Shown here one piece after another: positions 6,396 to 33,230 of a stretch of DNA of 64,000 bases (positions are counted from its first letter, which is position 1; each line of letters starts with the position of its first letter). The translations under genes were made by a program, and so were the position numbers. The DNA lies in assembly GCA_947453725.1 (NCBI GenBank), contig CANGHH010000014.1, forward strand, positions 1 to 64,000. Direction: 5' to 3'. This stretch comes from Betaproteobacteria bacterium. GTDB lineage: Bacteria; Pseudomonadota; Gammaproteobacteria; Burkholderiales; Burkholderiaceae_C. Under the pieces are notes generated by a model. The model was not told the DNA's origin. It made no database searches and saw only the letters and a program-made list of their open reading frames with translations.

Positions 6396-6398
6396 GCC

Positions 6399-8198
6399 AT
6401 GCAGCCGCTGCGGATCGGGCGCCGGCTGGCGGGCGGCCTGGCTGGCGGACTGGCGATCGGCGTGGCCAGCGTGGCCGCGGCAGCCGAGCCGGCGAGCTCG
6501 CCCGCGCGCCCCAACATCGTCGTGCTGGTCGCCGACGACTGGGGCTTCAGCGACGTCGGCGCCTTCGGGGGCGAGATCGCCACCCCCAACCTCGACGAAC
6601 TGGCGCGGCGCGGCCTGCGCTTTTCGAACTTCCACGTCGCCGCCTCGTGTTCGCCCACCCGATCGATGCTGCTCACCGGCGTCGACAACCACCGCAACGG
6701 CCACGGCAACCTGCGCGAGACCATGCCGGGCGCCCACCTCGGCCAGCCGGGCTACCAGGCCACGCTGACGCCCACGGTGGTGACGGTGGCCACGCTGCTG
6801 CAGGCCGGCGGCTACCGGACCTCGGTGGCCGGCAAGTGGAATGTCGGCAACGAGGCGCGCAACCTGCCCGACCAGCGCGGCTTCGACCGGTCCTTCGTGA
6901 TGGGCGACACCGGCTCGGACAACTGGGAACCCGAGAAGCGCTACCTGCCGCATGCCGCCCGGGTCAACTGGTTCGAGGACGGCAAGCCGCCGACCCTGCC
7001 CAAGCGGTTCTACTCATCGACCTTCTTCGTCGACAAGACCATCGAATACCTGCGCGCCGGCGCGGCCAGCGGCAAGCCCTTCTTCGCCTACGTGGGCTTC
7101 CAGGCCAACCACGTGCCGGTGCAGGCGCCACAGGCCTTCGTCGCCAAGTACAAGGGCCGCTACGACGCCGGCTGGACGGCGCTGCGCGAGGCGCGGCGCG
7201 CCAAGGCCGCCGAGCTCGGCCTGGTGCCGAAAGACGCCCCGATGGTGACGATGGGCACCACCCTCGACTGGGCCGCGCTGAGCGCCGAGGACAGGACCTA
7301 CCAGGCCCGGCTGATGGAGGTCTATGCCGCGATGGCCGACGCGATGGACCATGAGGTCGGCCGGCTGATCGCCCACCTGAAGGCCAGCGGCGAGTACGAC
7401 AACACGGTGTTCGTCTTCCTGTCCGACAACGGCCCCGAGGGCTCGGACTACAAGGAAGCCGACCTGTGGCTGCGCTTCAACTACAGCCGCGACCTCGACC
7501 GCCTGGGCGGCCCCGGTGCCTATGTGGTGCCCGGGCCGTCGTGGTCCAGCGCCTCGGCGTCGCCCCTGAGCACCTTCAAGTTCTATGCCGGTGAAGGCGG
7601 CATCCGTTCGCCGCTGATCATCAGCGGCCCGGCCGTCACCGCAGCCAACCAGGTCCACGCCGGCCTGACCCACGTCACCGACATCGTGCCCACGCTGCTC
7701 GACCTGGCGCAGTTGCCGCGGCCGGGCACCACCTACCAAGGCCGGACCATCGAGGCGCAGACCGGCCGCAGCCTGCTGCCGGTGCTGGCCAACCCGGCCC
7801 TGCGCGTGCGCCATGCCGACGAGCCGCTGGGCTACGAGCTGGCTGGCAACAAGGCGCTGTTCAAGGGCGACCTGAAACTGGTACTGAACAACCCGCCGGT
7901 CGGCGACGGGCAATGGCATCTGTACGACCTGCGCACCGACCCGGGCGAAACCAGGGACCTGCAGCAGACCTTGCCGCAGCCCTTCACCGCGATGCGGGCC
8001 GACTACGCCGCCTGGGCCCAGGCCAACGGCGTGTTGGCTATGCCCGAGGGCTACAGCCCGGTGAAACAGGTCTTCATCAACAGCATCGTCAACTACTGGA
8101 TGCCGACCTACGGGCTGCAGAGCCTGGCGGTGCTGGTGTTGCTGCTGGGCCTGCCGGCGGCGCTCATGCTGCGCGCCAGGCGCCGACGCGCGCGATGA
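6399..8198 (+). CDS. Sulfatase (arylsulfatase-like), exported, formylglycine type
   Basis: PNIVVLVADDWGFSDVG metal site, CSPTRSMLLTG (C-X-P-X-R), GKWNVG; signal peptide and C-terminal hydrophobic helix with Arg-rich tail. Confidence 0.9.
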   Translation: MQPLRIGRRLAGGLAGGLAIGVASVAAAAEPASSPARPNIVVLVADDWGFSDVGAFGGEIATPNLDELARRGLRFSNFHVAASCSPTRSMLLTGVDNHRNGHGNLRETMPGAHLGQPGYQATLTPTVVTVATLLQAGGYRTSVAGKWNVGNEARNLPDQRGFDRSFVMGDTGSDNWEPEKRYLPHAARVNWFEDGKPPTLPKRFYSSTFFVDKTIEYLRAGAASGKPFFAYVGFQANHVPVQAPQAFVAKYKGRYDAGWTALREARRAKAAELGLVPKDAPMVTMGTTLDWAALSAEDRTYQARLMEVYAAMADAMDHEVGRLIAHLKASGEYDNTVFVFLSDNGPEGSDYKEADLWLRFNYSRDLDRLGGPGAYVVPGPSWSSASASPLSTFKFYAGEGGIRSPLIISGPAVTAANQVHAGLTHVTDIVPTLLDLAQLPRPGTTYQGRTIEAQTGRSLLPVLANPALRVRHADEPLGYELAGNKALFKGDLKLVLNNPPVGDGQWHLYDLRTDPGETRDLQQTLPQPFTAMRADYAAWAQANGVLAMPEGYSPVKQVFINSIVNYWMPTYGLQSLAVLVLLLGLPAALMLRARRRRAR

Positions 8199-11993: not shown

Positions 11994-13121
11994 ATGCGCC
12001 CCATCAAGTTCCGCCCTGCACTGCTTGCCGTCGCCGTCATCAGCACCCTGGCCACACCGGCGATGGCCGCCGACGGCTTCAAGGTCCGCTTCCCGCTGTC
12101 GGGCACCCTGGGCGGCGAAATCGTGGCGCAGGTCGAGAACCCGGGCTGGTTCGCCAGCGTCTCGCTGACGCAGATCGAGATCGACAAGATCACCGACGAC
12201 ACCGGCAATGCCTTCCAGCAGCTGAAGAGCGGCGCCTTCGCGACGCCGGCGGCGATCGCCGGCGCGGTGCGCACCGCCACCTACAGCGGCACCGTCGGCA
12301 TCGACCTGAAGCAGTCGCAGACCAATGCCAACCTCGTCGTCGGCTACCAGACCGACAAGCGCTATGCCGGCGGCCACATGGTGCTGGCGCTGAACCTGCC
12401 CTACACCGCCCGCCTGAACCGTCTGAGCACCTACAGCGGGTCGACCCCCACGCTGAGCACCCTGGCGCCCGCCCTGACCTCGCCGCCGCTGCCGGCCGGT
12501 ACCGGTGCCGCTGCGCAGGCCGGCGCCCAGTCCGGCTTCAACACGGCCTACCAGGCGCAGCTGGCGGCGCTGTCGACGGCCGGCACGGCGGTGGTGGACG
12601 GCGTCGGCGACGCGGAAATCACCGGCGCCTGGGTCTACAACCAGGACGGTCTGAAGGTCATCACCGGCCTGACCGTGGCCCTGCCGACGGGCCAGTACGA
12701 TGCGAGCAGCCAGATCAACATCGGCTTCGGCAATTTCTACACGCTGCGCCCGGGCGCCGCGGTGGCCTACAGCCCGACCGCCAACTGGACGCTGGGTGCA
12801 CGGGGCAGCCTGGCCTTCAACACCCGCAACAAGGACAACCAGATCAAGAGCGGCGACTACGGCGCGCTCGACCTGGCCGCCGCCTACCGCTCGCCGATCG
12901 GCGTTTTCGGGCCACACGTCCTGCTGATCCGGCAGTACGCCGACGACGACGGCGGCACGCTGGGTGCCAACCGCTTCAGCTCCACCGGCGCTGGCTTCTT
13001 CTACACCACGCTGATCCCGAAGGTCGAGGCCGCGGTCAACCTGTCCTACCTGAAGACACTCAATTCGCGCAACGCGCTGACCGGGTCCTTCTACCAGTTG
13101 CGGGTCTCGAAGGCCTTCTGA
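11994..13121 (+). CDS. Outer-membrane protein, MetA-pathway/SphA-like transporter
   Basis: Signal peptide (LLAVAVISTLATPAMAADG), alternating beta strands, C-terminal Phe (RVSKAF); resembles the MetA-pathway phenol degradation family. Confidence 0.7.
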   Translation: MRPIKFRPALLAVAVISTLATPAMAADGFKVRFPLSGTLGGEIVAQVENPGWFASVSLTQIEIDKITDDTGNAFQQLKSGAFATPAAIAGAVRTATYSGTVGIDLKQSQTNANLVVGYQTDKRYAGGHMVLALNLPYTARLNRLSTYSGSTPTLSTLAPALTSPPLPAGTGAAAQAGAQSGFNTAYQAQLAALSTAGTAVVDGVGDAEITGAWVYNQDGLKVITGLTVALPTGQYDASSQINIGFGNFYTLRPGAAVAYSPTANWTLGARGSLAFNTRNKDNQIKSGDYGALDLAAAYRSPIGVFGPHVLLIRQYADDDGGTLGANRFSSTGAGFFYTTLIPKVEAAVNLSYLKTLNSRNALTGSFYQLRVSKAF

Positions 13122-13140
13122 ACCGGATCGGCCAGCGCCG

Positions 13141-14946
13141 ATGAGGGCCAAAGGCCTTGCGTGCTGGCCGCGCATCGGGCTGGCTGGCCTGCTTGCGGGG
13201 CTGGCACCGGGCTGCGGTGCCGGCGAGCCGCCCGCCCGGCCCGACATCGTCGTGCTCGTCGCCGACGACTGGGGCTACACCGACCTCGGCGCCTATGGCG
13301 GCGAGATCGCCACGCCGAACCTCGATGCCCTGGCCCGACGTGGCGTCAAGTTCAGCAACTTCCATGTCGCGGCCACCTGTTCGCCGACCCGGGCGATGCT
13401 GCTCACCGGCGTCGACCACCACCGCAATGGCGTCGGCAACATGCCCGAGACCATGCCGCCCGAGCACCTGGGCCAGCCGGGCTATGCAGGGGTGCTCGGC
13501 GACCAGGCCGTCACGCTGGCCACGATGCTGCGCGACAGCGGTTACCGCACCGCCATCACCGGCAAGTGGCACCTCGGCAAGACGCCGGACACCTTGCCGG
13601 GCCGGCGCGGCTTCGAACGCTCGTTCATCCAGGCCGACAGCGGCGCCGACAACTGGGAGAACCGGACCTACATGCCGCTGTACGACAAGGCCTACTGGTT
13701 CGAACAGGACCGGGAAGTCGGCCTGCCGGACACCTTCTATTCCTCGACCTTCTTCGTCGACAAGGCCATCGAGTACATCGCGTCGGCCGGCCGAGACGGG
13801 AAACCCTTCTTCGCCTACATCGGCTTTCAGGCCAACCACATCCCGATCCAGGCGCCCCGGGCCTTCGTCGAACGCTACCGCGGCCGCTACGACGGCGGCT
13901 GGACGGCGCTGCGCCAGGCCCGGCAAGCGCGCGCGCAGGCCCTGGGACTGGTGCCTGCGGGTGCCGGCCTCGTGAACCTGCCGAGCACGAAGGACTGGGA
14001 CAGCCTGAGTGCCGAAGAGCGGCGCTGGCAGGCGCACCACATGGAAGCCTACGCCGGCATGGCCGAGGCGATGGATGCGGCGGTGGGCCGCCTCGTCGCC
14101 TCGCTCAAGGCGATGGGGCGCTACGAGAACACCGTGTTCGTCTTCCTGTCGGACAACGGTTCCGATCCCGCCAATCCCCTCGAGATTCCCGTCTCCAAGG
14201 CCTGGGTGCGGATGAACTACGTGACCGATGCCGACCCGCTGGGCGGCAAAGGCACGTTCTCGGCGAACGGACCGCACTGGGCCACCGCCACCAACTCGCC
14301 GCTGAGCGGCTACAAGTACTTCGCCAGCGAAGGCGGCCTGCGCGTGCCGATGATCATCGCCGGCGTGCCCGGCATGGTCAGCAACCAGACGGCGAAGGCG
14401 CTGAGCCACGTCAACGACATCGTGCCGACCTTGCTGGAGGTGGCCGGCATCCCGGCCCACGACGGCCGCTACCGGGGCCGGCCGGTCGAGACGCTGGTCG
14501 GACACAGCCTGGTGCCGCTGCTGACGGGTCGGGCCGATCGGGTCCATGCGGCCGACGAAGCCATCGGTTACGAGCTGGCCGGCTCGGCGGCGCTGTTCAA
14601 GGGCGACTTCAAGCTGGTCAGGAACCTGGCGCCGCTGGGCGACGGGCAATGGCATCTCTTCGACCTGCAGGCTGACCCGGGTGAGGCCCATGATCTGCGC
14701 GAGTCGCAAGCCGATCGCTTCAAGACGCTGCAGGCCGACTATGCCGAGTACGCACGCCGCAACGGCGTGCTGCCGATGCCCGAAGGCTTCGATCTGCAGG
14801 AAACGGCGCTGCGCTACGCGCTCCACCACGGCCTGCTGCCCAAGCTCCGGCAAGCCGCCCCCTGGGGCCTGGGTGGCTTGCTGGCTGCCGTGCTCGGTAT
14901 CTGCTGGCTGCGCCGCCGGCGCACAGACAGCTCGGCGGCCGCCTGA
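13141..14946 (+). CDS. Sulfatase (arylsulfatase-like), exported, formylglycine type
   Basis: PDIVVLVADDWGYTDLG, CSPTRAMLLTG, GKWHLGK; C-terminal TM helix with RRRR; paralog of 6399..8198. Confidence 0.9.
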   Translation: MRAKGLACWPRIGLAGLLAGLAPGCGAGEPPARPDIVVLVADDWGYTDLGAYGGEIATPNLDALARRGVKFSNFHVAATCSPTRAMLLTGVDHHRNGVGNMPETMPPEHLGQPGYAGVLGDQAVTLATMLRDSGYRTAITGKWHLGKTPDTLPGRRGFERSFIQADSGADNWENRTYMPLYDKAYWFEQDREVGLPDTFYSSTFFVDKAIEYIASAGRDGKPFFAYIGFQANHIPIQAPRAFVERYRGRYDGGWTALRQARQARAQALGLVPAGAGLVNLPSTKDWDSLSAEERRWQAHHMEAYAGMAEAMDAAVGRLVASLKAMGRYENTVFVFLSDNGSDPANPLEIPVSKAWVRMNYVTDADPLGGKGTFSANGPHWATATNSPLSGYKYFASEGGLRVPMIIAGVPGMVSNQTAKALSHVNDIVPTLLEVAGIPAHDGRYRGRPVETLVGHSLVPLLTGRADRVHAADEAIGYELAGSAALFKGDFKLVRNLAPLGDGQWHLFDLQADPGEAHDLRESQADRFKTLQADYAEYARRNGVLPMPEGFDLQETALRYALHHGLLPKLRQAAPWGLGGLLAAVLGICWLRRRRTDSSAAA

Positions 14947-18923: not shown

Positions 18924-20603
18924 TCAGTTGGCGTAGTAGACGTACTCGTCGCCCGCCGTCGTCGGCTGCTTCATCGAATGATCGATCGCGATCGGCCCTG
19001 CACCCAGCGAGGGCCACATCGGCTTGCGCTGGGTCTGGTTCCAGGCCAGCAACTGCGCCTTCAAGGCCGCCAGGCGCTCGGGCTCCTTGCCGGCGAGATT
19101 GATCTTCTCGGTGGGGTCGGTGGCCAGGTTGAACAGCCAGTCCTTCTTCGGCAGTTCGGACACCTGCAGCTTCCAGTCGCCGGCGCGCACCGTGAGGTAG
19201 GTGTCGGTGCGCCAGAACAGCACCTCGTGCGGCCGGCCGGGGGCGGCCCCCTGGATGAAGGGCAGCAGGTCGACGCCGTCGATGATGCGGTCGACCGGTG
19301 CCTTCTGGCCGGCGGCCGCGGCGGCCGTGGCAAAGATGTCGAAATGGCTGACCGGTGCCGTGACACTGGCCCCCTGCGGGATGCGGCCCGGCCAGCGCAT
19401 GAAGTAGGGCACGTGGATGCCACCCTCAAAGAAGGTGGCTTTCCAGCCCCGGTAGGGCGAATTCAGGCCGTCGATGCCGACGTAGTGCGCGCCGCCGTTG
19501 TCGCTGGTGAAGATGACCAGGGTGTTGTCGTCGACGCCCTGGTCCTTCAGCGACTGCAGCACGCGGCCGATGTTGCGGTCCAGCGAACGGATCATCGCGG
19601 CGTAGACGCGCATCGTGTGGTCGGGGATGAAGGCCAGCGCGTCGTAGTCCTCGCGCGTGGCCTGCAGCGGCGTGTGCGGCGCGTTGTAGGCCAGGTACAT
19701 GAAGAAAGGCCGGTTCTTGTTGGCCGCCACCACCTTGACCGCTTCGTCGGTCAGGTAGTCGGTCATGTACCTGGGCGGCTGGAAGGGCTCGCCGTCCTTG
19801 AAGCGCACGCCCCAGGGCTCGGCGGCCCAGAGGAACTTGTCGATCGGGTCGAAGTCCTGCATCGCGTTGACCACCTTCGGGTCCTTCGTCGGCAGGAACA
19901 TCGACGCGCCATGCAGGTGCGACAGCGACTCGTCGAAGCCGTGGTTGTAGGGTCGGAATTGCGGGCTGTCGCCGAGATGCCATTTGCCCAGGTGCACCGT
20001 GTGGTAACCCGCGCCCTGCAGCAGCCGGGCCAGCGTGATCTCGCTGGTCGGCAGACCCATGTCCTCGTAAGGGATCAGGTCGGCCTCGCGCTCGGGGTGG
20101 TAGACCGGCTTGATCAGCTGATCGGCCGGGGCCATGCCGGTGACCGCCTTCATGAACTGCTTGGGCGTCGGCGTGAACTCGAAGCCGAAGCGGGTGGCGT
20201 AGCGCCCGGTCATCATCGCCGCACGCGAAGGCGCACAGGTGGCGTTGCCGGCGTAGCCGTTGCGGAACTCGACGCCCTGCCGGGCGATGCTGTCGATGTT
20301 CGGCGTCGGCACCCGGCCGCCGGCGATGCCACCGCCGTAGCGGGTGATGTCGTTGAAGCCCAGGTCGTCGGCGACGATCAGCACCACGTTCGGGGCACGC
20401 CGCGGTGCGCTGCCGTCGGCGGTGCTGGCCGCCGGCGCGGCCGGGCCGGCCTGCCAGGCCACTTCATGGGTCGGCGCGTAGTCCTGGTGCAACCAGTACT
20501 TCACCGTCAGCAGCAGCAGGCCGGCTCGCCCGCCGACGGCGTAGAAGGCCAGCGCGGCCAGCAGCAGCAGGGCCACCAGGGCCCAGACGAGGCGTCTGAT
20601 CAT
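18924..20603 (-). CDS. Sulfatase, N-terminally membrane-anchored, formylglycine type
   Basis: PNVVLIVADDLGFNDI, CAPSRAAMMTGRY (C-X-P-S-R), LGKWHLGD; N-terminal TM segment. Confidence 0.92.
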   Translation of the reverse strand: MIRRLVWALVALLLLAALAFYAVGGRAGLLLLTVKYWLHQDYAPTHEVAWQAGPAAPAASTADGSAPRRAPNVVLIVADDLGFNDITRYGGGIAGGRVPTPNIDSIARQGVEFRNGYAGNATCAPSRAAMMTGRYATRFGFEFTPTPKQFMKAVTGMAPADQLIKPVYHPEREADLIPYEDMGLPTSEITLARLLQGAGYHTVHLGKWHLGDSPQFRPYNHGFDESLSHLHGASMFLPTKDPKVVNAMQDFDPIDKFLWAAEPWGVRFKDGEPFQPPRYMTDYLTDEAVKVVAANKNRPFFMYLAYNAPHTPLQATREDYDALAFIPDHTMRVYAAMIRSLDRNIGRVLQSLKDQGVDDNTLVIFTSDNGGAHYVGIDGLNSPYRGWKATFFEGGIHVPYFMRWPGRIPQGASVTAPVSHFDIFATAAAAAGQKAPVDRIIDGVDLLPFIQGAAPGRPHEVLFWRTDTYLTVRAGDWKLQVSELPKKDWLFNLATDPTEKINLAGKEPERLAALKAQLLAWNQTQRKPMWPSLGAGPIAIDHSMKQPTTAGDEYVYYAN

Positions 20604-20647: not shown

Positions 20648-21733
20648 TCAGGGCCGCCTGCCCATCGCGACGGCGGCGCTGCCGGCCGGCAGCGTGAACC
20701 AGTCACCGTCGGCACCGATGCGCAGCGGTCCGGCGTAGATCTGGCCCGCGCGCTGCAGGAAGACCGGCTCCAGCCCCGACAGCGGCAAGGGCGGCACGAT
20801 GTGGTTGAAGACCAGCGCCTTGACACCAGCCGCCTGGGCGATCGCAGCCGCCTCTTCCGGCGTGGTGTGGTAATTCAGCACGTCGTGCATGATCTGCGCC
20901 AGGTTCTGCCGGCCGGCCTGGCTGAAACCCTGCTCGAGCAGCCCCAGCAGCTGCGGCGACAAGGCCTCGTGGACCAGCAGGTCAACGCCCTGGGCTTCGC
21001 GCGCCACCGCCGCACTCTTGCTCGTGTCGCCGCTGATCACCAGGCTGCGGTCCTTGTAGCGGATGCGGTAACCGACGGCCGGGTGGATGGGGCCGTGGTC
21101 GACCGCGAAAGCCACGATCTCCAGGTCGGGCTCGGCGACCAGCACCCGGCGCCCGCTGGCCGCGTCGATCTCGAAAGGCCGCGCCTGCCCACCGAAGCCC
21201 GCCGGCGGCGCGACGGCGGCGCCGTGGTGGGCGGTGCGGTAGCCCTTGTCGAGGGCGTAGGCGTCGTTGAAGCCTTGCAGCACCTGCTCCAGGCCCGCCG
21301 GGCCGTAGACCGGCAGCGGCTGCTGCGCCGTGCGCTGTATCCAGCGCTGGAGCATCAGCTCGCCCAGGCCGTCGATGTGGTCGGAGTGGTAATGGGTGAA
21401 GAACAGCGCCTCGATCTGCCCGGCGTTGAGCCGCATGCGGGCGATGTTGCGGCCGGCACCCGAACCCGAGTCGAAGATGAACAGGCGCCGCCCGGCGACC
21501 ACCGCGGTGCAGGGGCCGCTGCGCAGTTCGTCGGGAAACGGTGAACCGGCGCCGCACAGGCCGACGTGCAGGCCGTCGGGCAGCGCCGCCAGCGGGTCGG
21601 CCACGGCCGTCAGCACCTGGACCTGCCGCGCCATCAGGGCCACGGTGATCGGCCCGCGCTGCCACCAGGCCAGCGCGGCGGCCAGCGCCAGTAGGGCGAC
21701 GATCCACAAGGCCACTTTCGCCGCACGCTGCAT
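20648..21733 (-). CDS. MBL-fold metallohydrolase, exported or membrane-anchored
   Basis: THYHSDHIDGLGE (HxHxDH), VISGDTSKS, LVHEA; N-terminal hydrophobic segment. Confidence 0.88.
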   Translation of the reverse strand: MQRAAKVALWIVALLALAAALAWWQRGPITVALMARQVQVLTAVADPLAALPDGLHVGLCGAGSPFPDELRSGPCTAVVAGRRLFIFDSGSGAGRNIARMRLNAGQIEALFFTHYHSDHIDGLGELMLQRWIQRTAQQPLPVYGPAGLEQVLQGFNDAYALDKGYRTAHHGAAVAPPAGFGGQARPFEIDAASGRRVLVAEPDLEIVAFAVDHGPIHPAVGYRIRYKDRSLVISGDTSKSAAVAREAQGVDLLVHEALSPQLLGLLEQGFSQAGRQNLAQIMHDVLNYHTTPEEAAAIAQAAGVKALVFNHIVPPLPLSGLEPVFLQRAGQIYAGPLRIGADGDWFTLPAGSAAVAMGRRP

Positions 21734-24456: not shown

Positions 24457-25482
24457 GTGATGAAGCCGCGTCAAGGCTGGCTGGCCCTCGCGCTGGTTCT
24501 CGCCAGCCTGCTTGCAGCGGCCAGCACCTGGTGGCTGCAAGCCGGCCGCCAGGCCGCACCCGCCGCGGTCGAAGGTCGGGGCTGCACCCTCGAACCGCAG
24601 CCCGCGTCGAGCGCGCATCCCGGCATGGTCTGGGTGCCGGCGGGCAGCTTCGACATCGGCGACACGGTCTACCCCGAAGAGCTGCCGCGGCGCCGTCGGC
24701 ACGTCGATGGCTTCTGGATGGACCGCACCGAAGTCACCAACGACGCCTTCGCGGCCTTCGTGCGGGCCACCGGCTACCTGACGGTGGCCGAGCGGCCGGT
24801 CGACAGCGCGAAGCACCCCGGCCTCCCGCCCGAGATGCAGCAGCCCGGCGCCGTGGTCTTCGTCATGCCGCCCGATGTCCGCGGCCGCGCCGACATCAGC
24901 CAGTGGTGGCGTTACGTGCCGGGCGCGGACTGGCGCCATCCGGGCGGACCGGCCACCGGCATCCAGGGCCACGGCGCCTTCCCGGTGGTTGCGGTGACGG
25001 TCGAGGACGCTCAGGCCTATGCGCGCTGGAAAGGCCAGGCCTTGCCCAGCGAAGCGCAGTGGGAATGGGCCGCCCGCGCCGCGCGACCCGCGCCGGCGCC
25101 GGCGCACGAGCAACCCCGCGACGCCAACACCTGGCAGGGCCTGTTTCCAGTGGTGAATTCCGGCGAAGACGGCTATGTCGGGCTGGCCCCGGTGGGCTGC
25201 TACGCGCCGAACGCGCTGGGGCTGCACGACATGATCGGCAACGTCTGGGAACTGACCGCCGACGCCTGGACACCGCAGCATGGCGACGCCCCGCCGCCCG
25301 ACCAGGTGCCGGCGGGGCTGCGCGGCGGCGGCGCGGCGCAGCAGGTCATCAAGGGCGGCTCCTTCCTGTGTGCGCCGAACTACTGCATGCGCTACCGCGC
25401 CGGGGCGCGCGAACCGCAGGACCGCGACCTGGCCGCCAGCCACCTCGGGTTTCGCACCGTCCTGGTCGCGCCCGGACCATGA
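24457..25482 (+). CDS. Formylglycine-generating enzyme-like protein (SUMF1 family), membrane-anchored
   Basis: GMVWVPAGSFDIGD...GFWMDRTEVTNDAFAAFV...LPSEAQWEWAAR...GNVWELTAD...GGSFLCAPNYCMRYR...DRDLAASHLGFR. Retains the two-Cys active-site arrangement (CxxxxC). Confidence 0.88.
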   Translation: MMKPRQGWLALALVLASLLAAASTWWLQAGRQAAPAAVEGRGCTLEPQPASSAHPGMVWVPAGSFDIGDTVYPEELPRRRRHVDGFWMDRTEVTNDAFAAFVRATGYLTVAERPVDSAKHPGLPPEMQQPGAVVFVMPPDVRGRADISQWWRYVPGADWRHPGGPATGIQGHGAFPVVAVTVEDAQAYARWKGQALPSEAQWEWAARAARPAPAPAHEQPRDANTWQGLFPVVNSGEDGYVGLAPVGCYAPNALGLHDMIGNVWELTADAWTPQHGDAPPPDQVPAGLRGGGAAQQVIKGGSFLCAPNYCMRYRAGAREPQDRDLAASHLGFRTVLVAPGP

Positions 25483-26943: not shown

Positions 26944-29298
26944 CTAGCGGCGCCGAAAGGCCATCACGCCGTCGGCCACCTTGCGAAAACGCAGCGACAA
27001 CAGGTCCGTCAGGTAGTTCTGGTTCAGGCGCCAGGGGTCGCGGTCGCCCTGCTTGGGCAACAGGGCCGCAGCGCGCTGCACATAGCCCGAGGTGAAGTCG
27101 AGGAAGGGCTCGGGCGCCACCTGGGCGTCGAGGGTCGGCGTGAAGACGGTCTCGCCGTGGCGGTCCATGTGGCGCAGCAGGCGGCAGAAGTAGCGCGCGG
27201 TCAGGTCGGCCTTCAGGGTCCAGCTGGCATTGGTGTAGCCAAAGGTGTTGGCCAGGTTGGGCAGGCCGCCGAACATCATGCCCTTGTAGACCAGCAGGCC
27301 GGCCGGGTCGACCGGCACGCCGTCCAGGCTGAGCTTGGTGTCGCCCAGGATGCTGAGCTGCAGACCCGTGGCGGTGACGATCACGTCGGCCGGCAGCAGT
27401 TGGCCCGAGCGCAGCCGGATGCCTTGCGGCGTGAAGGTCTCGATCTGATCGGTGACCACGGTCGCCCGGCCCTCGCGCAGGGTCTTGAAGAGGTCGCCAT
27501 CGGGCACCAGGCACAGGCGCTGGTCCCAGGGCTTGTAGACCGGCGTGAAGTGCTTCCTGACATCGAAATCGGGGCCCAGCGCCTGGCGCACCATGCGCAC
27601 CAGCCGCGACTTGGCCTGCTGCGGGTATTTGCGCATCAGGCGGTAGAAGTACAGGCCGACCAGGACGTTCTTGGCGCGGATCAGCCGGTAGGCCAGCCCG
27701 GCCGGCAGCCAGTGCTTGAGGGCTTCGGCGATGGGGTCGACAGCGGGCCGGGCCACCACGTAGGTCGGCGAGCGCTGCAGCATCGTCACGTGGGCGGCGG
27801 TGCGCGCCATCTCGGGCACCAGCGTGACGGCCGTGGCGCCGCTGCCGATGACCACCACCTGCTTGCCGGCGTAGTCCAGCCCGGCGGGCCAGAACTGCGG
27901 GTGCACGATGGGGCCGGTGAACTGTTCCTCGCCGGGGAACTGCGGCCGGTGGCCCTGCGCGTAGCTGTAGTAACCGCTGCAGAACAGCAGGCAGCGCGCC
28001 TTCATCTGCAGGCGCTGGCGCTGCGGGCCGCGCTCGACCTGCACCGTCCAGCGGCCCTCGGCCGCCGACCAGTCGGCGCTGAGCAGCCGGTGCTGGGTGC
28101 GGATGTGCGCGCCGATGCCGTGCTCGACGGCGGTCTCGCGGATGTAGTCGCGGATGGCCGGACCGTCGGCGATGGACTTGGCCGCACGCCAGGGCTTGAA
28201 CTGGTAGCCCAGGGTGTACATGTCGGAATCGGAACGGATGCCGGGGTAGCGGAAGAGGTCCCAGGTGCCGCCGATCGCGTCGCGCGCCTCCAGCAGCGCG
28301 AAGGACTTGCCGGGGCATTCGCGCTGCAGGTGGACTGCCGCACCGATGCCCGACAGGCCGGCGCCGACGATCAGCACCTCGAGGTCCTCGGGCTGGCTGC
28401 GACCTTCAGCCGACTGCAGGAAGGCCCCTGCCGCGCGCACCGAGCGCCGCGCTTCCGGCAACTGGCGCAGCAATTGCCAGACATGGGGCACGACGGGAAA
28501 AACCTGCAGCTCGACCACCACGCCGGCTTCGCGCGCCTTCTGCGCCAGCCGGACCGCATCGTCGCGCAGCACCTCCGACTCGCCGACGTGCAGCAGCAGC
28601 GGCGGCAGCCCGGCCATGTCGCCGAACAAGGGCGAGGCCAGCGGCAGCAAGGGGTCGGCGCCGGCCAGGTAGGCCGCTGCCATCTGCGGCAGCTGCGTCG
28701 GGTCGAGCATCGCGTCACGGTGGGCGTTCAGCGTCATCGACGGGCTGGCGCCGGTCAGGTCCAGCACCGGCGAGAACAGCGCGGCCGCAGCCGGCAGCGC
28801 CTCGCCGGCGTCGCGCAGCGTCTGCATCAGACCGAGGGCCAGGTTGCCGCCGGCGCTGTCGCCGGCCACCACCAGGCGCGCCGTCGGGGCCGCGGCGCGC
28901 AGCGCGCGGTAGACCGCCAGCACGTCATGCGGGGCGGCCGGAAACGGCTGCTCGGGCGCCAGGCGGTAGTCGGGCGCGAAGACGCGCAGGCCCTGCAGCG
29001 CCAGCGCCGCGGTCAGCGGCCGGTGGCTGCGCGGCGAGCCGCCGACGAAACCGCCGCCGTGCAGGTAGAGCAGCGTGGTGGTGGTGGCCGGGCCGCCGGC
29101 CGGCGCATCGGCCTCGACCCATTCGCCGGGTACGCCCGCCACGCTGGCCGCCGTGTAGCGCACCCCCTTGGCGGCCGGCAGGCGGGTGCCGAGCGCCGCG
29201 CGCACCCGGGCCAGCTGGCGCAGGTCGGCCAGGGCCGGCTTGATGCGGCGGCGCACCACGAAGGCAGCGATGCGGGCCTGCCAGCTTGCATTCGTCAT
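26944..29298 (-). CDS. Fusion protein: N-terminal alpha/beta hydrolase (HSL-type esterase) + C-terminal FAD-dependent Baeyer-Villiger monooxygenase
   Basis: N-terminal HGGGFVGGSPRSHR...GDSAGGNLALG; C-terminal LIVGAGLSGIGAAVHL, FTGPIVHPQFWP (FxGxxxHxxxWP), VIGSGATAVTL; one uninterrupted frame. Confidence 0.88.
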   Translation of the reverse strand: MTNASWQARIAAFVVRRRIKPALADLRQLARVRAALGTRLPAAKGVRYTAASVAGVPGEWVEADAPAGGPATTTTLLYLHGGGFVGGSPRSHRPLTAALALQGLRVFAPDYRLAPEQPFPAAPHDVLAVYRALRAAAPTARLVVAGDSAGGNLALGLMQTLRDAGEALPAAAALFSPVLDLTGASPSMTLNAHRDAMLDPTQLPQMAAAYLAGADPLLPLASPLFGDMAGLPPLLLHVGESEVLRDDAVRLAQKAREAGVVVELQVFPVVPHVWQLLRQLPEARRSVRAAGAFLQSAEGRSQPEDLEVLIVGAGLSGIGAAVHLQRECPGKSFALLEARDAIGGTWDLFRYPGIRSDSDMYTLGYQFKPWRAAKSIADGPAIRDYIRETAVEHGIGAHIRTQHRLLSADWSAAEGRWTVQVERGPQRQRLQMKARCLLFCSGYYSYAQGHRPQFPGEEQFTGPIVHPQFWPAGLDYAGKQVVVIGSGATAVTLVPEMARTAAHVTMLQRSPTYVVARPAVDPIAEALKHWLPAGLAYRLIRAKNVLVGLYFYRLMRKYPQQAKSRLVRMVRQALGPDFDVRKHFTPVYKPWDQRLCLVPDGDLFKTLREGRATVVTDQIETFTPQGIRLRSGQLLPADVIVTATGLQLSILGDTKLSLDGVPVDPAGLLVYKGMMFGGLPNLANTFGYTNASWTLKADLTARYFCRLLRHMDRHGETVFTPTLDAQVAPEPFLDFTSGYVQRAAALLPKQGDRDPWRLNQNYLTDLLSLRFRKVADGVMAFRRR

Positions 29299-29321: not shown

Positions 29322-30182
29322 TCAGGTGGCGCGGATGCCCTGGCGGGCGAGGCCGCGTGCGGCCCATTTCCAGTAGCTGACCGGGAACAGCCGCTGCAAC
29401 CAGGCGGCGGCCACGGCATCGCTGCCGACCAGCACCCGCGGCTCGCGCCGCTCGATGCCGCGCAGGATGCGGGCCGCTGCGGCCTCGGGCGACAGGCGCA
29501 GCGCACGCCGCGCGTTGCGCTGGTGGACCTGGATGTCGGCCGCCGTGGCGCCGGCTGGCAAGCGGGCGTTGTCCGCAATGCCGGTGCGCACGCCACCGGG
29601 ATGGACCAGGGTCAGGCCGACTGCCGAGCGGCTGGTCTCGAGTTCGTGGCGCAGCGATTCGGAGAAGCCGCGCAGCGCGAACTTGGCGGCGCAGTAGGCC
29701 GTCTGCCCGGGCGGCGCGATGATGCCGAAGATGCTGGAAAGGTTGACGATCTGCGCGGCCGGGGCCTGCTCCAGCAGCGGCAGGAAGGCCCGCGTCAGCC
29801 GCACCACGGCGCCGAAGTTGATGGCCATCAGCCAGTCGAAGTCGGCAGCCGCGACCTGCTCGAAGCGGCCGCCCAGCGACACGCCGGCGTTGTTGACCAG
29901 GATCGTGGCGCGTCCGTGGCGGGCCAGCACGTCGGCGAACAGCGCCTCGGCCGACGCCGGCAGGGCCATGTCCAGCACCTGCGTGCTCACCGTGACGCCC
30001 CCGGCGCGGGCCTGCGCGGCGACGGCGTCGAGGCCGGCGGCGTTGACGTCGGCCAGCGCCAGGTGGCAGCCACGCTCGGCCAGCCGCCGTGCCAGCGCCG
30101 CGCCGATGCCACCGGCGGCGCCGGTGATGACGGCCACGCCGCCGCGCGGGTCCAGCGTGGTCGGAGCGCGCGGGCTGGTCAT
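29322..30182 (-). CDS. Short-chain dehydrogenase/reductase
   Basis: VITGAAGGIGAALARRL, NNAGVSLGG, YCAAK; start overlaps the upstream gene stop. Confidence 0.9.
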   Translation of the reverse strand: MTSPRAPTTLDPRGGVAVITGAAGGIGAALARRLAERGCHLALADVNAAGLDAVAAQARAGGVTVSTQVLDMALPASAEALFADVLARHGRATILVNNAGVSLGGRFEQVAAADFDWLMAINFGAVVRLTRAFLPLLEQAPAAQIVNLSSIFGIIAPPGQTAYCAAKFALRGFSESLRHELETSRSAVGLTLVHPGGVRTGIADNARLPAGATAADIQVHQRNARRALRLSPEAAAARILRGIERREPRVLVGSDAVAAAWLQRLFPVSYWKWAARGLARQGIRAT

Positions 30183-30826
30183 GGTGAGGCGACCAGCGCC
30201 AGCAGGCTGCCCAGGTGCACCAGCGCCGCCAGCAGGGCCAGCACCAGCGCCACCGCGACGCGCGGCCCCGGCGCCACGCTGACGATCACCTGGGCCGGAA
30301 AGCTGAAGGTCACGGCCGTGCCGGCCGTCTTCAGCCCATGCACGTCGCGCAAGGCCGGGTTGACGACCAGCGCCATCATGTCGCGCCGGCTGCGGTAGCG
30401 CATCGCGCCGACGACATGCCAGCCGGGGTCGGGCGCGGTGTTCCAGGCGTCGACATAACCGCCGACCTTGCGCATCGCCATCACGGGGTGGCCGCCGTGG
30501 CGCAGCAGCAGCTTCACGAACAGCCGGGCGTAGGACTGGAACAGTGCCAGCCCCGGGGTCGGCTCGCCGCTCACCGGGTGTGGCACCGCCTCCGGGTGCA
30601 GGCGCAGCAGGTTGCTCATGACGAACTCCTTGCCGTCGTCGGCTTCCAGAAAGGCCCGCACCACGGCCGGGTCGCTGTGCTGGTTGAGGCGCGTGCGCGC
30701 CGCCTCGGCCATGTAGGCGTCGATCTCGGCCTTGCTGAGCGGCCCGCGCCAGTTGTCGTACCAGAGCCTGAAGGCGCCGTACAGCGCCAGAGCCAGCAGC
30801 CACACCCACCAAGCGCCAACCATCAT
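30179..30826 (-). CDS. Membrane protein, unknown function, TM segments at both ends
   Basis: MMVGAWWVWLLALALYGAF... and C-terminal ALVLALLAALVHLGSLLALV; first gene after the 30858-30876 operator. Start approximate. Confidence 0.65.
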   Translation of the reverse strand: MMVGAWWVWLLALALYGAFRLWYDNWRGPLSKAEIDAYMAEAARTRLNQHSDPAVVRAFLEADDGKEFVMSNLLRLHPEAVPHPVSGEPTPGLALFQSYARLFVKLLLRHGGHPVMAMRKVGGYVDAWNTAPDPGWHVVGAMRYRSRRDMMALVVNPALRDVHGLKTAGTAVTFSFPAQVIVSVAPGPRVAVALVLALLAALVHLGSLLALVASP

Positions 30827-30855
30827 GCCGTTCCCCGGTGAACCCAGCCTCAAAG

Positions 30856-30876
30856 TATTGACACTATAGGTGCCAA
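30856..30876 (-). promoter_or_regulatory. Putative operator TTGACAC-TATAG-GTGCCAA overlapping a minus-strand promoter (TTGACC-N18-TATAGT)
   Basis: Imperfect palindrome (7-bp arms, 6/7 matching); -10 TATAGT falls inside it; matches 11939-11959. Confidence 0.6.
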
Positions 30877-30946
30877 TAGAGACCAGGGTCAACACCGGGC
30901 ATGCACGGGCGCCGCTGTGCAGGCGCGGCCACCACCCTCACGCCGT

Positions 30947-32224
30947 TCAGATCGAGGTTGGGCCGGCCCCGGCTCGCACCTGCAGCGCACTTTCGAAGGC
31001 TTCGAAACTGAGCTTCGTCGGGCCGACGAACGAGGCCGAGCGCACATGCTGCGCTGCGGGCTCGATGCCGGGGGGCGGCTCGCCGGCGGCCAGCGCCGCC
31101 GCCGCGTCGAGCAAGCGGCGCCGGGCGCGGACGATGGCCACATCGGTGGCGACCAGGAATTCCAGTTCGCGCTCGACGATGGGGCCCATGCTTTCCTGCA
31201 GCGACGCGTCCTGCATCGCGATGCCTTTGACGCCGCTGAAGTAGCGTCCGCTCTTTTGCGCCGCGCGGTCGATCAGGTAGTCGTTGTCCTTGTTGGCGAC
31301 CGAGCGGAAGCTGCCGGGTATCAGCTGCGCGAAAGCGCCTTCCTCCTTGGCCATCGCGTCCACCTCGTCGGCCGTCAGCGGTCGCGCCGGGTGGTGGGCC
31401 CAGTTCCAGGTGGTGCAGTTCTCGTCGTCGATGGGCACCCAGGCATGGCCGCGGATGGCGTTTTCGCCGTAAGGCGGGATGATGGTGTACCAGGGCATCA
31501 GCCATTGCGTGACGCGCCAGTAGCTCTGTGCGGCATCGACCTCGCGCTTGGCGGAAATGGCCAGGCCGGCGGCCGTCTTCTGCAGCTCGAAACTGGGGCG
31601 CTGGTTGGCGATGTGGCGCGCGCCGTCGGTGCCCACATGCAGCTTGTCGGTCTTCAGTTCGCCGCTGTGCAGCCACGACACGTGGCTGGAATCGATGCCG
31701 CCTTCCATCCCCTGCAGGTAGTTGCTTTCCTGGATGCGCTTGCTGATGTAGCGGTGGGCGTCGGGCACCATCGCCCATTCGTATTCGGGCAGCGGCGGCT
31801 GCTGTTCGGGCGGGCCCATGTAGGTCCAGACGATGCCGCCGCGTTCGACGCAGGGGTAGGCCTTCAGCTTGACCTGCAGCCGCAGCGGGCTGTCGTCGGG
31901 TTCCGAGGGCAACTCGGTGCACTGCCCGCTGGCGTCGTACTTCCAGCCGTGGTAGGGGCAGCGGATGCCCGACTGTTCGACACGCCCGAACCACAGCGAC
32001 ACGCGGCGGTGGGCGCAGAACTCGTCGATCAAGGCCAGCTTGCCGTCGCTGTCGCGGAAGGCGAGCAGCTTTTCCGACAGCAACTGCACGCGCACCGGCG
32101 GGCCGTCGGGCTCGGGCAGTTCGCTGCCCATCAGCGCCGGGATCCAGTAGCGACGGAACAGCGTGCCCATGGGCGTGCCGGGGCCGGTTCGGGTGAGGGT
32201 GTGGTTCTGTTCAGCGGTCGTCAT
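30947..32224 (-). CDS. Rieske 2Fe-2S aromatic ring-hydroxylating oxygenase alpha subunit-like
   Basis: CAHRRVSLWFGR...CPYHGWKYDASGQC Rieske motif; phthalate 4,5-dioxygenase-like N-terminus (GTPMGTLFRRYWIPALM). Confidence 0.9.
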   Translation of the reverse strand: MTTAEQNHTLTRTGPGTPMGTLFRRYWIPALMGSELPEPDGPPVRVQLLSEKLLAFRDSDGKLALIDEFCAHRRVSLWFGRVEQSGIRCPYHGWKYDASGQCTELPSEPDDSPLRLQVKLKAYPCVERGGIVWTYMGPPEQQPPLPEYEWAMVPDAHRYISKRIQESNYLQGMEGGIDSSHVSWLHSGELKTDKLHVGTDGARHIANQRPSFELQKTAAGLAISAKREVDAAQSYWRVTQWLMPWYTIIPPYGENAIRGHAWVPIDDENCTTWNWAHHPARPLTADEVDAMAKEEGAFAQLIPGSFRSVANKDNDYLIDRAAQKSGRYFSGVKGIAMQDASLQESMGPIVERELEFLVATDVAIVRARRRLLDAAAALAAGEPPPGIEPAAQHVRSASFVGPTKLSFEAFESALQVRAGAGPTSI

Positions 32225-32261: not shown

Positions 32262-33230
32262 TCAGTCGGCGGTGATGTGGCCCGCCTGCACCACCTGCTT
32301 CCACATCACCAGTTCACTGCGAACCAGGCTGTCCAGCCGCCCGGGCTTGCCGCCGGCGACAGTGACGCCCATGCGCGCCATCGCGTCTTTCACCTCGGGC
32401 AGCAGCAGCAGCGCGTTGACCTCGGTGTTCAGCTTTTCCAGCACGGCGGGCGGCGTGCCCGCCGGCGCGCTGATGCCATACCAGGCTTCGCTGACCACAT
32501 TCGGCACACCGGCTTCGCCGAGCGTCGGGACGTTCGGGAACTGCGCTGCGCGCTGCCGCCCGATGTCGGCCAACAGCCTGAATTTGCCGGCCTGCACCAG
32601 GGCCAGTGCGCTTTGCAGCGCCACCACGCCGGCCTGCACGTGGCCGGCCGCCAGGTCGTTCAGCGCACCGGCGGTGCCCTTGTAAGGCACGTGGGTCAGC
32701 GTCAGGCCGGTTTGCTGCTTGAAGAGCTCCATCGTCAGGTGGTGCACGCTGCCGGCGCCGGGCGACGCGTAATTGACGCTGCCAGGCGGCTGCCTCTTCA
32801 CATGCTCGATGAACTCGCGCACGGTGGTGGCCGGCACGCTGTTGGCCACCGCCAGCACCAGCGGGCTGCTGCCCAGCAGCAGCACGGGCGTGAAGTTCTT
32901 CAGCGGGTCGTAGGGCAACTGGGGCTTCAGCGCTGGCAGGGTGCTGAAGGCGGTGGCAGAAAACAGCAGGGTGTGGCCGTCGGGCGCCGCCTTGGCTGCG
33001 GCGTCGATGCCGATCAGGCCGCCGGCGCCAGCCCTGTTGTCCACCATCACCGGCACCTTCCAGCGCTGCGCAAGCAGCGGGCCCAGCAGCCGGGCCAACT
33101 GGTCGCCGGTGGTAGCCGGCGTCGACGGCACGATCAACTGGATGGCACGCGAGGGGTAGTCCTGAGCGGCCACGGGCGCGCCGACGAGGGCGGCCAGCAG
33201 CAGCGTGGCCAGCGGGAATCGGAATCGCAT
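32262..33230 (-). CDS. Bug/TctC-type tripartite tricarboxylate transporter substrate-binding protein
   Basis: Signal peptide; YPSRAIQLIVPSTPATTGDQLARLL...VMVDNRAGAGGLIGIDAAAKA...YKGTAGALNDLAAG. Confidence 0.9.
   Translation of the reverse strand: MRFRFPLATLLLAALVGAPVAAQDYPSRAIQLIVPSTPATTGDQLARLLGPLLAQRWKVPVMVDNRAGAGGLIGIDAAAKAAPDGHTLLFSATAFSTLPALKPQLPYDPLKNFTPVLLLGSSPLVLAVANSVPATTVREFIEHVKRQPPGSVNYASPGAGSVHHLTMELFKQQTGLTLTHVPYKGTAGALNDLAAGHVQAGVVALQSALALVQAGKFRLLADIGRQRAAQFPNVPTLGEAGVPNVVSEAWYGISAPAGTPPAVLEKLNTEVNALLLLPEVKDAMARMGVTVAGGKPGRLDSLVRSELVMWKQVVQAGHITAD

Follow-up and report, generated by a model that had tools for sequence, protein, structure and literature searches.

The 64,000-nucleotide stretch of DNA analyzed here (the window) carries on its minus strand an unbroken reading frame that runs from an ATG at position 29298 to a stop at 26944 and translates into a protein of 784 amino acids (aa). 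A ribosome-binding-like AAGGA lies just 5' of the ATG, and GC content by codon position is of the coding type throughout residues 1 to 784, including the junction between the two halves of the protein. These halves are an N-terminal HSL-type esterase and a C-terminal type I Baeyer-Villiger monooxygenase (BVMO), joined by a linker of about nine residues. A preliminary description of the locus had read the frame as one open reading frame (ORF) encoding an HSL-type hydrolase followed by a BVMO, and Pfam matches together with the HGGG, GDSAGG, GAGLSG, and FTGPIVHPQFWP motifs bear this out; it had put the junction at about 28.35 kb, close to where we find it (about 28381-28407), but it overlooked that the gene lies on the minus strand. 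The features of the gene and its surroundings are listed in Table 1.

Table 1. Coordinates of the fusion gene, its predicted domains and catalytic residues, and neighboring genes in the window
Feature	Position	Strand	Basis or remark
Whole fusion gene	26944..29298	-	Starts with ATG at 29298; 784 codons, then a stop; ORF and translation, 13 full-length homologs at 61-83% identity
HSL-type (Abhydrolase_3) esterase domain, residues 1-297	28408..29298	-	Pfam, solved relatives, fold match
Ser148 codon, predicted nucleophile in GDSAGG	28855..28857	-	Invariant in 14 fusions
Glu242 codon, predicted catalytic acid	28573..28575	-	Invariant in 14 fusions; acid role inferred by alignment to Est8-like esterases
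His272 codon, predicted catalytic histidine	28483..28485	-	Invariant in 14 fusions
Interdomain linker, residues 298-306	28381..28407	-	Length and sequence vary among fusions; fast-evolving
Type I BVMO domain, residues 307-784	26947..28380	-	Two Rossmann motifs, BVMO1 and BVMO2 signatures, PDB relatives, PAMO fold match
Asp357 codon, predicted catalytic Asp at the end of the BVMO1 signature	28228..28230	-	Motif match, invariant; role from PMC9044951
Arg594 codon, predicted catalytic Arg	27517..27519	-	Invariant; aligns with conserved Arg of OTEMO
SDR gene, probable secondary-alcohol dehydrogenase	29322..30182	-	Pfam adh_short, E 5e-46; ends 23 bp upstream of fusion
Operon neighbor, 238 aa, no Pfam family	30179..30895	-	Start overlaps region of SDR start
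Operon neighbor, Rieske oxygenase with LigXa-like C-terminal domain	30947..32224	-	Pfam
Operon neighbor, TctC-type solute-binding protein	32262..33230	-	Pfam
Three sulfatases, formylglycine-generating-enzyme-like protein, metallo-beta-lactamase-fold hydrolase	6396-8198, 13081-14946, 18924-20603, 24460-25482, 20648-21733		Surround fusion

The assignment of the N-terminal half to the HSL family (family IV) of esterases is based on several concordant lines of evidence. Pfam Abhydrolase_3 matches residues 76 to 275 (E 8e-54), the solved esterases Est8, EstD11, and E40 align to residues 17 to 295, and Foldseek matches the fold to 6y9k (TM 0.87 by target). The oxyanion-hole motif HGGG is present at residues 80 to 83, its loop being invariant across the 14 aligned fusions described below, and the nucleophile motif GDSAGG (GxSAGG) is present at residues 146 to 151. 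The acid and histidine expected of an HSL triad, E242 and H272, are likewise invariant and align with those of the solved Est8-like esterases.

In the C-terminal half, NAD_binding_8, FMO-like, and Pyr_redox families of Pfam match residues from about 305 to 517, and the relatives in the PDB are OTEMO and the phenylacetone (PAMO), cyclohexanone, and steroid monooxygenases, with a Foldseek match to PAMO at TM 0.55 by target. All hallmarks of type I BVMOs as defined in PMC9044951, including BVMO1, [GA]GxWx4[FY]P[GM]x3D, were found in the expected order: two Rossmann motifs of the form GxGxx[GA] (GAGLSG at 312-317 and the NADPH-binding GSGATA at 485-490) flank the BVMO1 signature GGTWDLFRYPGIRSD at 343-357 and the BVMO2 signature (FxGx3Hx3W[PD]) at 460-471. 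Both predicted catalytic residues, D357 and R594, are invariant in the 14 fusions, as is His466, and in one homolog (L115) Tyr replaces the Phe of the BVMO2 signature. The length of about 480 residues and the presence of orthologs in actinobacteria suggest that the domain belongs to the EthA-like group of BVMOs, a provisional label for a grouping that the preliminary description had missed. A structural model of the whole chain, predicted with the 14 sequences, reached only moderate confidence (mean pLDDT, 66.6) and says nothing reliable about the relative placement of the two active sites, but in Foldseek the single chain matches both PAMO (TM by target, 0.55) and esterases of the HSL family (up to 0.87).

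The same protein is encoded in one frame, at 61 to 83% identity, by 13 other genomes or metagenome-assembled genomes (MAGs): five belong to the family of the window genome and six to its genus, and two are Burkholderiales MAGs. Together with the window protein they make up a set of 14 fusions, here called type I, on whose alignment all statements of invariance are based. Their distribution is patchy, with type I fusions in 7 of the 81 species of the genus, and in one more member of the genus (G796) the BVMO half runs off the end of the contig. The preliminary description had feared a frameshift or an assembly error near 28.35 kb; because the 13 homologs are in frame and come from separate assemblies, and because the base composition stays of the coding type over the junction, such an artifact is ruled out. 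As a control, we inspected long open frames 5' of unfused BVMO genes in GC-rich genomes; these had a noncoding codon composition and contained no hydrolase, and they were therefore rejected as additional fusions.

Although the 14 proteins differ by up to 39%, none of them departs from the catalytic residues of either domain. Compared with the three nearest homologs, dN/dS was 0.27 to 0.39 for the hydrolase and 0.19 to 0.37 for the BVMO, values that indicate purifying selection on both domains. Comparison with a more distant homolog (L118) gave higher ratios of 0.49 and 0.61; saturation of synonymous sites in this GC-rich genome is the probable cause.

The gene directly 5' of the fusion encodes an SDR, as it does at seven other type I loci, and in these eight loci the SDR and HSL sequences are adjacent and codirected with the BVMO, forming an SDR-HSL-BVMO arrangement of the kind expected for ketone degradation. 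No SDR was seen upstream at the other 6 of the 13 type I loci, one of which (L119) is cut by a contig end, so the link to the SDR is not universal. Orthologs of the 238-aa operon protein occur near a fusion or a sulfatase at three loci (L034, L116, and L204), and genes for the Rieske oxygenase and the TctC-type protein were found near none of the other type I fusions. Also around the fusion are genes for FadD, an alpha/beta hydrolase, and a porin-like MetA protein. The FadD gene is on the strand opposite to the fusion, and the FadD proteins encoded near some other fusions are only 28 to 33% identical to that of the window and hence are not its orthologs.

The sulfatase genes and their companions listed in Table 1 form an island, parts of which recur in four other genomes (G840, G851, G854, and G855). 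Orthologs of the sulfatase nearest to the fusion are present in only 5 of the 81 genomes of the genus, and in two of these five (the window genome and G854) a fusion lies near it. In G855 (L203:1-3738), the sulfatase ortholog (88% identity) adjoins an unfused BVMO-HSL pair of separate ancestry, which looks as though a BVMO and an esterase had been taken up by the island twice; within the regions fetched from G840 and G851 there was neither a BVMO nor an HSL gene. This setting hints, weakly, at sulfated secondary alcohols as the ultimate substrate.

Regarding the descent of the type I fusions, their 14 hydrolase moieties form one clade (support, 100/96), whose sister group consists of unfused hydrolases with 51 to 56% identity from three genomes of another family (f38) in the same phylum (joint support, 100/96). 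The genes for these unfused hydrolases directly precede a gene for a BVMO of a different class, with 28 to 30% identity to the window BVMO, and at two of the three loci they are themselves preceded by an SDR gene whose product is 53 to 56% identical to the window SDR. Since the nearest unfused esterases thus adjoin a BVMO of another class and usually an SDR, the lineage seems to have kept the SDR-HSL unit and gained a new BVMO; the simplest reading is that this unit swapped its partner for an EthA-like BVMO and then fused to it. Unfused BVMOs with up to 67% identity to the window BVMO are found widely across Pseudomonadota as well as in Actinomycetota and other phyla, and two of them (L009 and L019), with no hydrolase nearby, fall among the type I BVMO moieties. 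A single origin of these moieties is not rejected by the AU test (P = 0.23) but is not established by it either. Unfused SDR-HSL-BVMO clusters were found at L106 and L108, and adjacent unfused BVMO and HSL gene pairs also occur, in both orders. Searches across whole phyla evaluated the two or three top candidates of each genome, so further fusions may exist outside the family.

A search for the same architecture, which the preliminary description had proposed, recovered not only the 13 type I homologs but also three further kinds of fusion. Type II comprises 17 fusions (L052-L065 and L123-L125) of about 780 to 825 aa from the same bacterial family and genus as the window. Like type I, they have the HSL domain before the BVMO domain and carry all motifs, but their BVMO is of another class, with 28 to 31% identity to that of the window, and their hydrolases form a separate clade; a single clade of type I and type II hydrolases was rejected (AU test, P = 0.0064). 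Plasmid MP1 of Deinococcus radiodurans R1 encodes an 833-aa fusion (L161:5650-8151; WP_010884002.1), in which an HSL domain likewise precedes an EthA-like BVMO in one protein, but the hydrolase is of another subfamily, with about 30% identity and GESAGG as its nucleophile motif. Grouping of its BVMO with the type I BVMOs was rejected (P = 0.0044), whereas for its hydrolase, which sits on a long branch, grouping with type I (P = 0.11) or type II (P = 0.052) was not significantly rejected. On a plasmid of Burkholderia glumae, an 821-aa fusion (L184:4968-7433; WP_257829991.1) also unites HSL and BVMO domains in one protein, but in reverse order, with the BVMO first and the HSL second; 5' of it lie a GMC oxidoreductase gene and an aldehyde dehydrogenase gene. 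The AU tests support the view that the type II and D. radiodurans fusions arose independently of type I, and the reversed domain order argues for a separate origin of the B. glumae fusion. The preliminary description called adjacent BVMO and esterase genes well known and a fusion less familiar; it did not see that the fusion has equivalents in the type II set, D. radiodurans, and B. glumae.

Annotation conceals such genes behind single-domain names: the D. radiodurans protein is called only "alpha/beta hydrolase fold domain-containing protein," and the database entry for the B. glumae fusion names only its hydrolase half. An older annotation of the D. radiodurans gene may have read "arylesterase/monooxygenase."

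Taking these observations together, we consider it likely that the window protein is a bifunctional catabolic enzyme that converts a ketone via an ester to an alcohol and an acid, with the ketone supplied by the SDR encoded upstream. In the proposed route, the SDR, whose gene ends 23 bp from the fusion, would probably oxidize a secondary alcohol to a ketone; the C-terminal BVMO, using FAD, NADPH, and O2 and the Asp357-Arg594 pair, would insert an oxygen beside the ketone carbonyl to give an ester; and the N-terminal esterase, with the putative triad Ser148-Glu242-His272, would split this ester by hydrolysis into alcohol and acid, so that the last two of the three steps would take place on one polypeptide. 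A dehydrogenase/BVMO/esterase route has been established in the subterminal metabolism of alkanes and in that of ketones (PMC6304351, PMC4192553). That the same two activities have been fused repeatedly and in both orders is strong indirect evidence that they belong to one shared pathway, and the separate, repeated fusion suggests that coupling the two enzymes is useful. The preliminary description had proposed just such consecutive steps; its domain identities and the fusion itself held up, and the intact invariant motifs, purifying selection, upstream SDR, and recurrent fusion make the consecutive steps plausible, while from the sequence we infer enzyme function itself: the catalytic activity, the sequential use of one substrate, and any channeling. 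As EthA-like BVMOs also activate drugs and oxidize other substrates, the physiological product may be something other than an ester. A more far-reaching view is that the fusion is a recurrent solution, with at least four origins, different partners, and both domain orders, because the BVMO site hands the ester straight on to the esterase site, and that in the window it serves a catabolic island for sulfate esters in which a sulfatase would yield the secondary alcohol that is converted to the ketone and then enters the fused step; we regard this as possible but doubtful.

Other explanations of the fusion need to be weighed against the catabolic reading. The fusion might do nothing but keep two active, independently working domains at the same level or let them fold together, with the ester diffusing freely or the esterase taking unrelated esters. 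A short linker of variable sequence and the fact that the same two activities work as separate genes in many relatives would fit this, and HSL-family esterases are commonly of broad specificity; yet the repeated independent fusion of the two activities, in both orders, argues for a shared pathway (though not for channeling), and we think this explanation unlikely. Still less probable is that one domain is noncatalytic, the hydrolase, for instance, being a scaffold or substrate-binding module: with both catalytic sets invariant among proteins so divergent and dN/dS well below 1 in both domains, we give this very little credence, and we give hardly any to an artifact of assembly or frameshift, in view of the 13 in-frame homologs and the composition across the junction.

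A role in modifying cell lipids, like the one put forward for the Mycobacterium tuberculosis mymA operon, with the esterase domain perhaps acting as a transacylase, deserves separate consideration. The EthA-like length of the BVMO and its orthologs in Actinomycetota would be in line with such a role, as would the FadD and SDR genes within the window and the transacylase activity that is described for the esterase Est8, the best fold match; moreover, ethA and mymA mutants point to lipid metabolism (PMC9044951, PMC10272862). However, the surroundings look catabolic (sulfatases, Rieske oxygenase, TctC, and porin-like MetA protein), FadD is encoded on the other strand and is not orthologous to the FadD proteins encoded near some other fusions, and the patchy spread over 7 of 81 species of the genus is unlike that of an envelope function. 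We therefore judge a lipid-modifying role to be quite improbable and favor the bifunctional catabolic enzyme.

If that enzyme is what the gene encodes, then several independently evolved didomain enzymes couple ketone oxidation with ester hydrolysis, with the unfused gene pairs as natural controls, and it becomes testable whether fusion brings channeling, relief of product inhibition, or only coexpression.

Parts of this arrangement have counterparts in known systems. The EthA/MymA-type BVMOs (M. tuberculosis EthA, MymA, and Rv0565c) share with the window protein the type I hallmarks and a length of roughly 480 residues, but they are single-domain enzymes, whereas the window protein adds an N-terminal HSL esterase. 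In the mymA operon, Rv3085 is the SDR. The operon further comprises Rv3083 mymA (BVMO), Rv3084 lipR (esterase), and, farther on, Rv3089 fadD13 (acyl-CoA synthase) (PMC10272862). It resembles the window in encoding a BVMO and an esterase together, along with an acyl-CoA synthase, but the genes are separate, the BVMO precedes the esterase, and the operon is described as having an envelope-lipid function. A codirected set of BVMO, esterase, SDR, and FadD genes as in that operon is not present in the window, where FadD is on the opposite strand and is not conserved with the fusion. Closer in content are the dehydrogenase-BVMO-esterase sets such as that of Pseudomonas fluorescens DSM 50106, in which alcohol dehydrogenase, esterase, and BVMO genes are adjacent. 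Its BVMO acts on C8/C10 open-chain ketones (PMC5407406). These sets have the same three activities as the window, and the clusters at L106 and L108 match them in content, but they encode the BVMO and the esterase as two distinct proteins. A search of the open-access literature found no account of a natural BVMO-esterase fusion; artificial BVMO fusions have been built for biocatalysis. The pathway and its gene clusters are of known kinds, of which the didomain enzyme is a new variation.
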